Source: a virus
Virus record (IMG/VR): IMGVR_UViG_3300008108_000870
Span: 1 to 20,832 of that record
DNA: 20,832 nucleotides
Strand: one strand, 5' to 3'
The notes beneath the pieces are model-generated. The model made no database searches and was not told the origin of the DNA. It worked only from the letters and a program-made list of their open reading frames with translations. The position numbers were made by a program, and so were the translations under genes. Positions 1,650 through 5,707 of the stretch are shown piece after piece (the first letter of the stretch is position 1; each line of letters starts with the position of its first letter).

Positions 1650-1657
1650 TATTTATA
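1650..1657 (-). promoter_or_regulatory. T4-type late promoter, TATAAATA
   Basis: The minus strand reads TATAAATA, an exact match to the T4 late promoter octamer recognised by the gp55-type late sigma factor with the gp33/gp45 coactivators. It overlaps the TAA stop of the last oxygenase gene (1653-1655) and lies about 30 nucleotides upstream of the ATG of the 63-residue coiled-coil gene (1617-1619). The position, immediately upstream of a gene and pointing at it, supports function. No -35 element is expected for this class. Confidence 0.8.
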
Positions 1658-2327
1658 ATGTGTGAGTGAAGTATACCATTGTATGGCGAATATCATTTAT
1701 CCATCTTGAAGTAATAGATGAGGCATGATGAACAGATCCGTCGTAAATAATTAATCTGTTATATTTTGCTGGTAAAAATCCTATCTTAGAAACATCGGAT
1801 TTTTCCACCCAAGCTTGTGGACTTTTATGAAATCCAGAACCATTAAACATTACCGTACCATCTTCTTCGCCATATTCTTTGTTTAAATATGTGATGGAAG
1901 CAATTGTTTTACTTCCATCTTCGTGTGGTCCATAATAACATTGACCATATTTTGAATATGACTCTTCTGACATTGTGAATATATTATTTGATAAAGGAAA
2001 TAATTTTTGATGGGGGTCTATATCAATTGTTAAATTGAAACATTTAATGATGATATCTTCTATCACATCCATGAATAATTGTTTTTCATAAAAAATGAAG
2101 TGGGATCTACCATCATAATATTCTGTACCATTAGCGTCTACATTATAAACTCCTTGTAATTTTACTGTGGGAATTTTTAAAGCTGCTTCGTGAATTTTAT
2201 CTGGATATGTCCAAAAATCTTCTATGACTAAAAAATCTCCCCATGAAGAGTTATAGACATTAACATTGAAATTATTAATTGAAAATAATTCTGGTGTTAT
2301 TAATATTGGCAAATTTGAATTGATCAT
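1653..2327 (-). CDS. 2OG-Fe(II) oxygenase-like protein (DUF6445-like), fourth of the cluster
   Basis: A 224-residue protein from the ATG at 2325-2327, which forms an ATGA overlap with the stop of the preceding gene; an in-frame ATG at 2349-2351 would add eight residues. The early DFLVIEDFW segment and the metal site YGPHEDGSK (H135, D137) followed by ASITYLNK are typical of 2-oxoglutarate and iron-dependent dioxygenases. The distal histidine is H200 or H201 in YDGSVHHASS, and R214 is placed to bind 2-oxoglutarate. The overall arrangement resembles the DUF6445 branch rather than classical prolyl hydroxylases. The substrate is unknown. It is the last gene of the probable fibre-oxygenase late transcript, and its 3' end contains the late promoter of the next gene. 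Confidence 0.78.
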   Translation of the reverse strand: MINSNLPILITPELFSINNFNVNVYNSSWGDFLVIEDFWTYPDKIHEAALKIPTVKLQGVYNVDANGTEYYDGRSHFIFYEKQLFMDVIEDIIIKCFNLTIDIDPHQKLFPLSNNIFTMSEESYSKYGQCYYGPHEDGSKTIASITYLNKEYGEEDGTVMFNGSGFHKSPQAWVEKSDVSKIGFLPAKYNRLIIYDGSVHHASSITSRWINDIRHTMVYFTHTL

Positions 2328-2914
2328 ACAAATCTTGGACCCATAACCCATCCGACTAAAGATTTTCTACAACCACTTTTTATTTTTTTTACTCGATGTC
2401 TCAATGAGCTGTCAAAAACAGTAATCACTCCTCTTTCTTTTGGGATAGTAATTAATTCATTAGTAGCAGATGATAAAATCTGTACCTCTCCACCCTCATA
2501 TTCACTTGGATCTGATAATTGTAAAGTAAATGATAATTTTCTTATAATACCATTTGGATCTGGTTTACTACTATCATTATGCCAATTGTAATATTCTCCT
2601 TCGGAGTATGACGTGTATTGTATTCCATCCCCATCAAAATACTTTATATCATAATTAAAATTATCTTCATTCGCCAAAGAAATAAAATAATAGCAAAGAG
2701 CACCGATCCAAGTACTTGCTGGTATAAATTTTATTTTACTTTTTCTAATATTCAGATTAATTTCTCCGCCAGCAGATCCATAATCCATAGTGTTTTCAGA
2801 AACATCAAAAGTTTCCTTTATTTCTTTTTCTATGATATCCACCATTTCTTTAGGAAGACCAGTGTTAAACCAATACATATCAAATTTTTCTGTTATAGAA
2901 TTGAATTTAAGCAT
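2324..2914 (-). CDS. Prolyl-4-hydroxylase-like 2OG-Fe(II) oxygenase, third of the cluster
   Basis: A 196-residue dioxygenase with a complete facial triad. H112 and D114 lie in NWHNDSS, the distal H173 in FDSSLRHRV, and R183, ten residues later, can hold the 2-oxoglutarate carboxylate. The segment LSFTLQLSDPSEYEGGEVQI and the ending SLVGWVMGPRF are characteristic of the prolyl 4-hydroxylase-like (PKHD/PiuC-type) enzymes found in T4-like cyanophages. The family uses O2 and 2-oxoglutarate to hydroxylate amino-acid side chains or other substrates in the cytoplasm. The chosen start is the ATG at 2912-2914: a GGAG at 2922-2925 sits seven nucleotides upstream of it. An in-frame GTG one codon earlier is less well placed. 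The gene overlaps the preceding one by 8 bases and the next by 4. Confidence 0.87.
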   Translation of the reverse strand: MLKFNSITEKFDMYWFNTGLPKEMVDIIEKEIKETFDVSENTMDYGSAGGEINLNIRKSKIKFIPASTWIGALCYYFISLANEDNFNYDIKYFDGDGIQYTSYSEGEYYNWHNDSSKPDPNGIIRKLSFTLQLSDPSEYEGGEVQILSSATNELITIPKERGVITVFDSSLRHRVKKIKSGCRKSLVGWVMGPRFV

Positions 2915-3488
2915 CACTGTTCTCCATAAAAGTGTTTAATATTTTTTGGATGTCAACATCACCTTCGTACCCAGAATATTGAAATACCATTGTTATTCTA
3001 CCAATGTCTTCCATTAAAGAAGTTGGTGGTCGAGAACCATGATACATGTAAGTAGGTGATATAACGATTCTTCCTGGTTTAGGAATTACTGAAATTGTAA
3101 AGTCTGGATTTGGATCTCTTGAAAAATATGTTTCTCCTCCCCAATGAAATTCCCATCTATCGTTTAAATAAACAATAAAACTAACTCCATAATCATAATC
3201 AGCATCTTTGTGAGTATCACAAAAATCAATTTGTCTAAACATATTAACTAAAACCCTATCAAAATTTGGAATATTAAAAGAGAAAGATTCTCTAAATTTT
3301 TCCATAATATCTTTTATGATGTCATCATCAATTGATAAATGAGCGGTAAAACTTGAAACTCTTTTTGTTTGATCGTTAGTTAATTCATAACACTTTAAAG
3401 AGTAAGCCCACTTGTTCAAAAAGATAATTTCTTCTTCTGTGAAAAAATCATCAACAATAATAATATCTTCGATAAAATTAATTTTCAT
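2907..3488 (-). CDS. 2OG-Fe(II) oxygenase, second of the cluster
   Basis: A 193-residue protein with a canonical 2-oxoglutarate/iron dioxygenase site: H93 and D95 in DTHKDADY, then SFIVYLND and WGGETYF, the distal H150 in YMYHGSRPP, and R164 in GRITMVF as the probable 2-oxoglutarate ligand. The spacing and the GGET motif are those of the prolyl-4-hydroxylase-like superfamily. The start was set at the ATG at 3486-3488 because an AGGAG (3500-3504) lies 11 nucleotides upstream. An in-frame GTG at 3498-3500 would overlap that Shine-Dalgarno sequence and is unlikely. The gene overlaps the preceding oxygenase by 11 bases and the next by 8, suggesting coupled translation. The substrate is not known. 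Confidence 0.85.
   Translation of the reverse strand: MKINFIEDIIIVDDFFTEEEIIFLNKWAYSLKCYELTNDQTKRVSSFTAHLSIDDDIIKDIMEKFRESFSFNIPNFDRVLVNMFRQIDFCDTHKDADYDYGVSFIVYLNDRWEFHWGGETYFSRDPNPDFTISVIPKPGRIVISPTYMYHGSRPPTSLMEDIGRITMVFQYSGYEGDVDIQKILNTFMENSDA
2922..2925 (-). promoter_or_regulatory. Shine-Dalgarno GGAG deciding the ATG at 2914
   Basis: The minus strand reads GGAG seven nucleotides upstream of the ATG at 2912-2914. This favours that ATG over the in-frame GTG one codon upstream. The site lies inside the 3' end of the preceding oxygenase gene. Confidence 0.65.
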
Positions 3489-4107
3489 TACCGTATACAC
3501 TCCTGAACCAACCTGTCAAAATATACTTGTCTTGAGTGAATACCGTATTTCCTCTATGTAAATGTGTATAAGCAGCTGGCCACAAAACTGTTGTGCCAGC
3601 TGTCGGTCTGATTCTTAATTTCTGATGAAAAAATTCAGTCTCTGCTTCACCTTCTGGCATATCATTTAAGTAGATCATCCATGCTACATGACGACTGTTG
3701 AACATTTGAGATCCATCCATTCTTTCGGTATGCCAAACATGGTATCCCCCACCTGGAGGAGTTTTTTGCATTTTAATTTCTGTCGATACTAATCTAGATG
3801 TATTTAAATCTGGATATTCTTTTGAATAAAGATTGTAAGCTTCTTGAAGGTGCTCGTAACAAACGTCTGATAATTCGGAATCCAGTATATTTACAAATAC
3901 CGCGGTGTCATTTCTGCCTGTTTTCCCAATATTGAATTGCTTATCTCCAGCAGAAATTATACTATCTGGCAAGATTTCTACCGAAGAATTTGTGCCAAAA
4001 TTTGTTTTTTTGTCTTTAATAATATATTCAAACCATTGAATATATTCATCACATATTTCTTTGGGCATCAAATTTTCAAATAATCCAATGTGGTCAATAA
4101 TTTTCAT
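3478..4107 (-). CDS. 2OG-Fe(II) oxygenase with HxE-type site, first of the cluster
   Basis: A 209-residue protein of the prolyl-4-hydroxylase-like fold. The core reads GGGYHVWHTERMDG, then WMIYLNDMPEGEAETEF, then KLRIRPTAGTTVLWPA, then YTHLHRGN and KYILTGW. The expected HxD is H126-T127-E128, so glutamate replaces aspartate as the acidic metal ligand. The distal histidine is H182 or H184, and K194 or R185 may bind 2-oxoglutarate. The surrounding motifs are otherwise intact, so the protein is probably an enzyme, although an HxE triad can alter activity. The ATG is preceded by GGAGA 11-12 nucleotides upstream. It begins 26 nucleotides after the glycine-rich adhesin gene with no terminator between, tying the oxygenases to the fibre genes. 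Confidence 0.83.
   Translation of the reverse strand: MKIIDHIGLFENLMPKEICDEYIQWFEYIIKDKKTNFGTNSSVEILPDSIISAGDKQFNIGKTGRNDTAVFVNILDSELSDVCYEHLQEAYNLYSKEYPDLNTSRLVSTEIKMQKTPPGGGYHVWHTERMDGSQMFNSRHVAWMIYLNDMPEGEAETEFFHQKLRIRPTAGTTVLWPAAYTHLHRGNTVFTQDKYILTGWFRSVYGNEN
3500..3504 (-). promoter_or_regulatory. Shine-Dalgarno AGGAG deciding the ATG at 3488
   Basis: The minus strand reads AGGAG with an 11-nucleotide spacer to the ATG at 3486-3488. The alternative in-frame GTG at 3498-3500 shares a base with this motif and so could not use it. The site lies within the preceding oxygenase gene. Confidence 0.6.
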
Positions 4108-4132
4108 AATTAATTAAATCTCCAAATATTAT

Positions 4133-5707
4133 TTAGGTTAGTCCAGAAACAGATCCAGTATAAGAATAAGTATAAGTTTGATTTGCTCTAATAGCTCTTC
4201 CAGCGGCTCCTCCAGCATTACCTGATCCAGCAGTTCCCCAATCTCCTCCAGAAGATCCAGTATTTCCAGCTCCTCCTGGGTTTCCAGGATTTCCGCTGTT
4301 TCCTTGTGCTCCAGCATTACCAGTAGCTCCTCTGCTGCCAGAATTTCCTGCTGCTCCAGCAGCGCCATTATTTCCTGGATTTCCTGGATTACCACTGTTG
4401 CCATTATTTCCTCTGGCTGAAACAGTTTCACTAGTCTGTGAGCAGTTTGTTCCAGTTCTTCTAATAATTCTTCTTGTCCATGAACCATTAGTTCCTGTGT
4501 TACCAGGACCGCCAGCACCACCAGCTCCACCAGCAGTAGCTCCAGTTCCAGCTGTACCAGCAATACCAACAGATCGAGTCCATGTTGTGGGAGAAGCAGA
4601 TCCAGCGTTTCCTGGACTACCAGCATTTCCTGGATTGCCAGCACTACCATTAGCGCCAGCATTGCCAGTTAAAACACCCGTTTGGTAGTTATAACCTCTG
4701 CCAGCTCCACCAGATCCACCCGCGCCTCCAGCTCCTCCATTTCCAGCAGTTCCTCCTCCACCACCTGTGCCTCCAGCTCCACCAGGACCACCTAATCCAT
4801 TTTGACCTGGATTCCCGCTATTTCCAGCATTACCTCGTGCTCCAGCAGCTCCAGCAGATCCACCATTTCCAGTCGCCGTTCTAGACCCAACATTTTGAAA
4901 TGTTTGTAAACTTCGTCCACAAAAATTAACTCTGTCATATCTATAAGTAGTTCTATCTGGTCTAGTTAAAGATACAGAATTTCCAGCAGTTCCAGCACCT
5001 CCAGGATTTCCATTTGCTCCCGCTCCACCAGGATTAGCTCCAGTTCCAGCAGCACCAGTAGCTCCAGTATTTCCATTTGCTCCAGTATTTCCATTAGTAC
5101 CAGCGGTTCCATTAGAACCAGTATTACCGCCAGTTCCACCTCCACCACCTCCACGAACGGCACCAGTTGAACCAGAAACTGTGTATCCAACAACAGAAAT
5201 CAAAATAGCATCGCCACCAGGATTTCCTGCTCCACCACCAGCAGCTCCACCAGTTCCACCAGCACCTAAAACAGTGCCATTGTTTATCTGAACATTAACA
5301 TTTCCAGCAATAGTACCTGTTCCAGAAGATACAGCAGTATTGCCTGTTGTCGAAGCTCCAACAGTACCACCAATAACAACACGTTTTGGGACAACCTTGG
5401 AATAATTTCCGTTCCACTGAGTTAATCCAGAGATAACAACATCAGTATCAGTTCCAGACTGAGTAATTACAGATTCTTTAATAGTATTTCTATAATTACT
5501 GGCTTTTATATTAGCATTTGTTGTTGGAACATTGGCATTTTCAGTAGCATCATAAATGTATGGTGCTGCTGTAGTATTAGTTGTTTTTCTTTTTAATTCA
5601 CTGTATGAAATTGAACCTGATGTTACTTCTTTATAAGTGTTTCTTAAAGCACTTAAGGAAATAGCACCAGATCCAAAATTAGTTGTGGTACTGGACGTAA
5701 TAGCCAT
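4133..5707 (-). CDS. Glycine-rich collagen-like / polyglycine-II fibre-tip adhesin
   Basis: A 524-residue protein. Residues 1-130 are an ordinary, Ser/Thr-rich N-terminal domain that begins MAITSS, as many cyanophage fibre proteins do. From about 144 to 505 it consists of glycine-rich blocks, many in strict Gly-X-Y register (for example 433-489, about 19 triplets). They are interrupted by segments rich in arginine and aromatic residues at about 244-280, 337-348, 370-383 and 408-432. The end (AAGRAIRANQTYTYSYTG) is of the type that closes glycine-rich phage adhesins. Alternating glycine blocks and variable loops recall the polyglycine-II sandwich of T-even gp38 adhesins such as that of phage S16. 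It lies one nucleotide after a giant S74 fibre gene, the gene 37-38 arrangement. A collagen-like triple helix is the alternative. Twelve prolines in the glycine blocks are all X-Pro-Gly. Confidence 0.82.
   Translation of the reverse strand: MAITSSTTTNFGSGAISLSALRNTYKEVTSGSISYSELKRKTTNTTAAPYIYDATENANVPTTNANIKASNYRNTIKESVITQSGTDTDVVISGLTQWNGNYSKVVPKRVVIGGTVGASTTGNTAVSSGTGTIAGNVNVQINNGTVLGAGGTGGAAGGGAGNPGGDAILISVVGYTVSGSTGAVRGGGGGGTGGNTGSNGTAGTNGNTGANGNTGATGAAGTGANPGGAGANGNPGGAGTAGNSVSLTRPDRTTYRYDRVNFCGRSLQTFQNVGSRTATGNGGSAGAAGARGNAGNSGNPGQNGLGGPGGAGGTGGGGGTAGNGGAGGAGGSGGAGRGYNYQTGVLTGNAGANGSAGNPGNAGSPGNAGSASPTTWTRSVGIAGTAGTGATAGGAGGAGGPGNTGTNGSWTRRIIRRTGTNCSQTSETVSARGNNGNSGNPGNPGNNGAAGAAGNSGSRGATGNAGAQGNSGNPGNPGGAGNTGSSGGDWGTAGSGNAGGAAGRAIRANQTYTYSYTGSVSGLT

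Follow-up and report, generated by a model that had tools for sequence, protein, structure and literature searches.

A predicted gp38-type adhesin and a recurrent 2-oxoglutarate oxygenase neighborhood in the tail region of a T4-like phage

In a 20,832-nucleotide stretch of DNA from IMG/VR virus record IMGVR_UViG_3300008108_000870 (positions 1 to 20,832; herein the window), a gene for a glycine-rich tail-tip adhesin is followed by four genes (OX1 through OX4) for 2-oxoglutarate (2OG)-Fe(II) oxygenases, all on the minus strand. A preliminary description of the sequence had read this arrangement as a collagen-like fiber adhesin possibly hydroxylated by the enzymes encoded beside it. The observation is confirmed; the interpretation is supported in part, and modeling reshapes it to a predicted gp38-type polyglycine II (PGII) adhesin with a recurrent oxygenase neighborhood, in which OX1 resembles prolyl 4-hydroxylases (P4Hs). 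Our leading explanation, to which we give a little under an even chance, is that the locus is an adhesin-tailoring cassette in which at least one of the enzymes modifies the phage's own adhesin. Pro in X-Pro-Gly is the leading candidate for the substrate residue; that proline is in fact what is modified we regard as doubtful.

The adhesin and its oxygenase neighbors

The adhesin (4133 through 5707, minus strand; 524 residues) has seven Gly-X-Y blocks with loops between them, the longest uninterrupted run comprising 57 residues. As described previously, all 12 prolines of the glycine blocks (163, 226, 235, 300, 308, 359, 365, 401, 441, 444, 474, and 477; 17 prolines in total) directly precede Gly, and the remaining five (49, 61, 107, 250, and 373) do not. 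A structure model was generated with AlphaFold2 from an alignment of 21 sequences; much of the core has a predicted local distance difference test score (pLDDT) >90, and residues 1 through 75 score mostly <50. The model suggests an attachment-like N-terminal part (residues ∼1 through 75, low confidence), then a PGII core with variable loops. VIA-align places it closest to gp38 of phages S16 (6f45; Z 18.9, 191 residues aligned, 2.7 Å) and PP01 (9v85; Z 18.1, 187 residues), the next match having a Z of 7.4, and the confident Foldseek matches are gp38 only (PP01, E 3e-4 and 3e-3; S16, E 4e-3). In T2-type phages, gp38 forms the tip that binds the receptor; it is a PGII sandwich from which variable loops project (PMC12892980).

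The evidence from sequence is weaker and appears to agree with the predicted fold. The adhesin aligns to gp38 with an hhalign probability of 39% (E 3e-4, 49 columns) and a pairwise BLASTP E of 0.002; both share the motif G.GGTGG..GNPGGD (IYGRGGTGG..GNPGGD in S16 gp38 and VLGAGGTGG..GNPGGD in the window). The adhesin gene stands directly after that of the distal long tail fiber, an order kept in relatives. Because of the fold matches, the shared motif, and a relative in Synechococcus phage S-SRM01 that is annotated as a gp37-gp38 adhesin tip complex, the most fitting name for the protein is gp38-type PGII-sandwich adhesin, as predicted from the model, and not collagen. The earlier term “collagen-like” does not fit this predicted monomeric fold. 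The Collagen family PF01391 scores 20.9 bits on the adhesin, under its curated cut-off of 27.2, and the Gly-X-Y blocks, broken up by loops, are not the long continuous repeat of a collagen triple helix. The top PDB sequence matches are collagens, reflecting Gly-X-Y composition, and a collagen fold was rejected, as the structure search is confident for gp38 only.

OX1 (3478 through 4107; 209 residues), OX2 (2907 through 3500; 197 residues), OX3 (2324 through 2917; 197 residues), and OX4 (1653 through 2351; 232 residues) lie where they had been placed, each gene overlapping the next, and their assignment as 2OG-Fe(II) oxygenases stands. OX1, OX2, and OX3 score 42.4, 32.4, and 55.9 bits against PF13640 (Pfam cut-off 27 bits); OX4 is under that cut-off (19.1 bits) and above that of DUF6445 (26.9 vs. 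24 bits). All four keep the metal and 2OG residues.

The profile matches of OX1 are all P4Hs (Bacillus anthracis P4H, 3itq, E 1.9e-11; vCPH of virus PBCV-1, 5c5t, 2.4e-9), and the solved structures nearest to its model are all prolyl hydroxylases (VIA: Pseudomonas putida P4H, Z 20.1; PBCV-1 vCPH, Z 19.7; matches within 1 count as tied), consistent with the P4H double-stranded β-helix fold. Its motif is H126-x-E128...H184...K194, with the 2OG-binding Lys kept at H184 + 10. The metal triad of the window OX1, like that of all 32 tree sequences linked to Gly-X-Y proteins, is HxE...H, not the HxD...H of P4H, and the HEHK residues occur in every such OX1 relative. HxE is a working variant in some 2OG enzymes. 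Profile and predicted fold indicate that OX1 is clearly related to prolyl hydroxylases, and for this enzyme the proposed kinship holds. OX2 (H97-x-D99...H154...R168; HDHR) seems only distantly P4H/PHD-like, its profile matching a putative hydroxylase (9blq, 6.6e-7) and a P4H (6iuq, 4.9e-5). OX3 (H113-x-D115...H174...R184; HDHR) is a probable PKHD-type hydroxylase (3dkq, 3.3e-13; PiuC 9ghl, 1.2e-11). For OX4, which retains HxD...H...R (H143-x-D145...H209...R222), the profile search returned no solved relative. PHROGs files OX4 as a “minor coat protein” despite these residues, and the head or coat annotation is doubtful.

Recurrence of the adhesin-oxygenase pairing

Pro-before-Gly had been cited in the preliminary description; by itself it is weak evidence. 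The bias in the adhesin is real but not specific, and as a direct sign of hydroxylation it was dropped, since the pattern is also present in gp38-type adhesins without oxygenases and in Gly-X-Y proteins unselected for Pro. S16 gp38, which has no adjoining oxygenase, carries GNPGG, GAPGR, and GNPGS within its PGII domain; three of the five prolines in its Gly-rich parts precede Gly, and the motif around P163 of the window has a direct counterpart there. Across eight enterobacterial gp38 proteins the proportion is 19/36. Among 44 phage Gly-X-Y proteins found via GNAGNAG, and hence unselected for Pro, Pro is ∼10-fold more frequent in Y than in X (636 vs. 65). What stands out in the window adhesin is the amount of Pro in Y (Y-Pro), not Pro-before-Gly alone: the window clade has Pro at 16% of its Y positions, and one locus, L124, at 44%, compared with 6.5% for enterobacterial gp38, where triplets are few, and 4.9% for homologs that have no oxygenase inside 2 kb.

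IMG/VR was scanned with five patterns (GNPGNPG, GNAGNAG, GTPGTPG, GPTGPTG, and GQPGQPG), yielding in all a linkage sample of 213 non-redundant phage Gly-X-Y proteins that have flanks of 2 kb or more. Proteins were called linked if a same-strand gene of the OX1 through OX4 families lay no more than 2 kb away; “PGII-like” in these counts is a glycine-composition proxy, not a fold. The linked fraction is 44/66 for Y-Pro-rich and 10/107 for X-Pro-rich proteins (Fisher 2e-15), and among PGII-like proteins it increases with rising Y-Pro (0/6, 2/5, 20/25, 12/18; p 0.001); in the set unselected for Pro the counts are 7/8 vs. 3/15 (p 0.006). Counted by whole records, PF13640 occurs in 42/50 and 14/21 Y-Pro-rich records, 7/22 low-Y-Pro Gly-X-Y records, 10/100 X-Pro-rich records, and 7/41 records of gp38-type homologs. 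The nearest oxygenase gene is within 50 bp in 28 of the 63 linked loci. A rough random-placement test, confined to records with enough flank, gives an oxygenase within 2 kb in 9 of the 13 records >30 kb, where 1.85 are expected (rough p 1.5e-6). Y-Pro Gly-X-Y proteins do, then, adjoin OX-type genes far more often than X-Pro ones and more closely than under random placement. Pairs of this kind recur across many aquatic phages.

The four enzymes do not take part equally, as had been supposed. The OX3 family is most often linked (53 of the 63 loci), followed by OX1 (34); OX2 and OX4 rarely recur beside such adhesins, and a general linkage of these two did not emerge from the counts. The full order of the window (fiber-adhesin-OX1-OX2-OX3-OX4) is found in nine other IMG/VR loci showing the fiber (L004 through L008 and L010 through L013), which include some near-identical pairs and extend down to about 40 to 50% identity. 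Beyond these, about ten gene orders occur, OX3-OX1-adhesin and adhesin-OX3 being the commonest. In the OX1 tree the window enzyme falls among the OX1 proteins of cyanophages and outside the main clade of adhesin-linked enzymes, and the linkage must therefore have changed at least twice, by gain or loss; together with the variety of gene orders, this argues for repeated assembly. The window OX3 falls inside a largely linked clade (42 linked, 5 not).

Other loci of the survey extend this range. L155, L161, L179, L255, L261, and L287 encode N-P-G/N-A-G-rich glycine proteins of 1100 to 1600 residues with an OX3-type gene within 2 kb. One 65.5-kb virus record (G043, which holds L153) has ten PF13640 matches, most of them between 27.8 and 58 kb. 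X-Pro collagen-type phage fibers in L514, L501, L532, and L584 have an OX3-type gene within 0 to 351 bp; the L514 fiber ends in an intramolecular-chaperone-like part, with its OX3-type gene at 0 bp.

Candidate substrates of the oxygenases

The predicted gp38-type adhesin probably caps the giant tail fiber encoded by the preceding gene, and during infection the oxygenases would be translated from the late transcript that also carries the adhesin gene. OX1, with its predicted P4H fold, and/or the PKHD-type OX3 would most likely hydroxylate the adhesin, or tail fibers more widely, with Fe(II), 2OG, and O2; the reaction would occur before or during adhesin folding, most likely at Y-position Pro of the Gly-X-Y stretches. 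Its effect could be to stiffen or hydrate the PGII helices or to adjust the receptor-binding loops. Pro in X-Pro-Gly is favored because of the fold relatives of OX1, the Y-Pro trend, and two Asn-poor loci: L012, where Gln has taken the place of most Asn, and L124 both retain Y-Pro and oxygenase neighbors, which favors Pro over Asn as the residue. Asn hydroxylation was accordingly lowered from first choice. The YPGD repeats of the giant fiber, also proposed as a target, are few, and PG is not enriched there (13 PG among 143 Pro).

Several results weigh against modification of Y-Pro in the adjoining adhesin. When all Gly-X-Y proteins enter a joint regression, Y-Pro carries less weight than either PGII-like glycine content or Asn in X; the five search patterns shape this sample and also partly fix the regression variables. 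Collagen-type Y-Pro proteins found via GTPGTPG and GQPGQPG are linked in 1/25 and 0/4 cases, so that Y-Pro alone does not predict oxygenase genes. X-Pro records are mostly without any PF13640 match, and phage lineage thus confounds the contrast between Y-Pro and X-Pro. Taken from the other side, a PGII-like protein lies within 1.5 kb of OX3 in 46/80 loci, against a random-anchor rate of 0.45; an association starting at OX3 was set aside, being just slightly above random anchors in the same loci. Marine cyanophages carry OX1-x-OX3-OX2 after a tail-collar fiber with no Gly-X-Y protein, gp38-type adhesins are mostly without oxygenases, three adhesin lineages with a nearby oxygenase have few PG (L120, L129, and L132), and clustering leaves no significant PG difference inside the gp38-type family (p 0.10). 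Finally, PBCV-1, the closest viral precedent, has an active P4H whose role is called unknown, and the note that is cited there on the search for hydroxyproline among virion proteins reports none (PMC7019647), a caution that a viral P4H need not leave hydroxyproline in virions.

The survey of related phages proposed in the preliminary description has thus cut both ways: Y-Pro adhesins are linked to oxygenases, and oxygenases and Gly-X-Y adhesins also occur separately. The linkage is better put as oxygenases living beside tail-tip genes, with Y-Pro PGII-like adhesins usually having them, than as a one-to-one rule of hydroxylase and substrate. In a 64.7-kb record (L421), a 2299-residue Gly-X-Y open reading frame (ORF) with repeats such as GISGIPGISGTPG has Pro at 61% of Y positions, and its 12.6-kb locus is devoid of OX-type genes; Y-Pro is not always accompanied by the enzymes.

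The match to P. putida P4H makes a host target the main rival: the enzymes would serve the host or phage functions in general (substrates could be a proline of EF-Tu, for example, a ribosomal protein, a metabolite, or a surface glycan) and sit in the late tail region for reasons of expression or insertion. Among the top fold matches of OX1, level with vCPH, is the complex of P. putida P4H with EF-Tu, and the P4Hs of P. putida and B. anthracis act on Pro in EF-Tu. The cyanophage OX1-OX3-OX2 sets without Gly-X-Y adhesins also suit such a role, and in one study, which proposed effects on 2OG and nitrogen, 2OG oxygenases occur in 14/16 cyanomyoviruses (PMC3037559). A host target leaves unexplained, however, why the genes so frequently adjoin Y-Pro PGII-like proteins in several gene orders and why four oxygenases follow one adhesin in a row, and we consider it rather unlikely.

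Less likely again is that the virion is modified elsewhere, at other residues of the adhesin loops (Asn, Asp, Lys, or Arg) or in the giant fiber or other tail proteins. Four different enzymes, one of PKHD type, would be in keeping with several kinds of site; the same families adjoin other fiber types, including some X-Pro collagen-type fibers such as that of L514, and no variable in the regression correlates more strongly than Asn in X. Against this, L012 and L124 retain the enzymes with most of their Asn replaced or rare, and the giant fiber shows no PG enrichment. Shared descent, with aquatic T4-like phages keeping both kinds of gene together in a hypervariable island of the tail region and no functional link, is very improbable: lineage confounding, the weak reverse association, and the few changes of linkage (three each on the OX1 and OX3 trees) speak for it, but adjacency exceeds random placement in long records, nearest genes are within 50 bp in 28/63 loci, gene orders are several, and Y-Pro shows a dose trend within PGII-like proteins.

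Were the adhesin indeed tailored by its neighbors, phage receptor-binding tips could acquire non-standard residues after translation. Tying the oxygenases to the adjoining adhesin gives them a specific, testable substrate.

Genomic setting and comparison with known systems

The record is a 20.8-kb fragment of a T4-like virus whose host is probably a cyanobacterium. Upstream of the adhesin on the minus strand are a structural gene (17773 through 20766), a gene for a 169-residue structural protein (17258 through 17767), and the ORF of the giant tail fiber (5709 through 17195; 3828 residues), the candidate carrier of the tip adhesin, which stops 1 base ahead of the adhesin start. A gap of 25 bases (4108 through 4132) separates the adhesin stop from the OX1 start, and, as previously noted, no terminator-like site occurs on the minus strand between the adhesin and OX4. 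Downstream of OX4 come a 63-residue gene and a head-tail adaptor (553 through 1377), both on the minus strand; the nearest strong terminator-like hairpin (1425 to 1393, minus strand; 13 pairs and a T-run) possibly ends an adhesin-oxygenase transcription unit. The claim that no other late promoter intervenes back to 17245 is plausible but weak: 17245 is a one-mismatch site, such sites are at chance level (60 counted vs. 63 expected), and the single exact TATAAATA on the minus strand is at 1650, past OX4.

A second kind of enzyme surfaced beside gp38-type adhesins during testing. S-SRM01 and ten related loci have a gene for a flavin-dependent halogenase 15 to 36 bp (215 bp in L098) upstream of the adhesin gene (halogenase loci: L084:13445-16026, L095, L096, L098, L106, L107, L115, L116, L121, L122, and L125). 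These adhesins have 9 to 12 Trp (two have 4 and 6) vs. 1 to 7 in homologs without a halogenase, a difference that persists after clustering (4 vs. 12 clusters, p 0.003); having arisen in the course of testing, the pattern is not an independent confirmation. The halogenase is possibly a residue-matched modifying enzyme for Trp-rich adhesins. That aquatic phages pair modular PGII-type adhesins with residue-matched oxidative enzymes, P4H-like oxygenases with Y-Pro and flavin halogenases with Trp-rich adhesins, is an unlikely but attractive generalization; under it the receptor-binding tip would be chemically altered to carry hydroxyproline or halotryptophan, a layer of host-recognition variation not visible in the gene sequence. 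A cyanophage survey found 2OG oxygenases in 76/153 and flavin halogenases in 20/153. Viral use of P4H has been called cryptic (PMC9301287), and our literature search, with most subscription journals outside its coverage, returned no paper that connects prolyl hydroxylases of phages with Gly-rich adhesins.

Compared with gp38 of S16 and PP01, the window adhesin shares the predicted fold, the glycine-rich lattice with loops, and a gene position right after the large distal fiber gene. It appears to differ in its N-terminal part, is twofold longer, and is far richer in strict Gly-X-Y triplets and Y-Pro; oxygenases follow it, whereas a holin follows in the enterobacterial gp38 regions shown. OX1 resembles vCPH (5c5t) and the P. 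putida and B. anthracis P4Hs in predicted fold (Z 17.5 to 20), distal His, and 2OG-binding Lys, but has HxE for HxD, about 20% identity, and a predicted PGII adhesin adjoining it in a phage. OX3 shares its profile match and HxD...H...R with the PKHD hydroxylases Sbal_3634 (3dkq) and PiuC; unlike them, it is a phage tail-region gene linked to Gly-X-Y adhesins. EPclA-type collagen-like phage tail fibers likewise carry Gly-X-Y repeats in a tail protein; their Pro sits in X, seldom in Y, and they are described as having no prolyl hydroxylases (PMC3368898); the same 2012 paper describes bacteria and viruses as lacking enzymes that hydroxylate Y-position Pro. The window adhesin, by contrast, has Pro in Y and a predicted PGII fold. 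The S-SRM01 adhesin is homologous (45% over residues 21 through 126) but has short Gly-X-Y stretches and few PG, with a flavin halogenase upstream and the nearest PF13640 gene >20 kb away.

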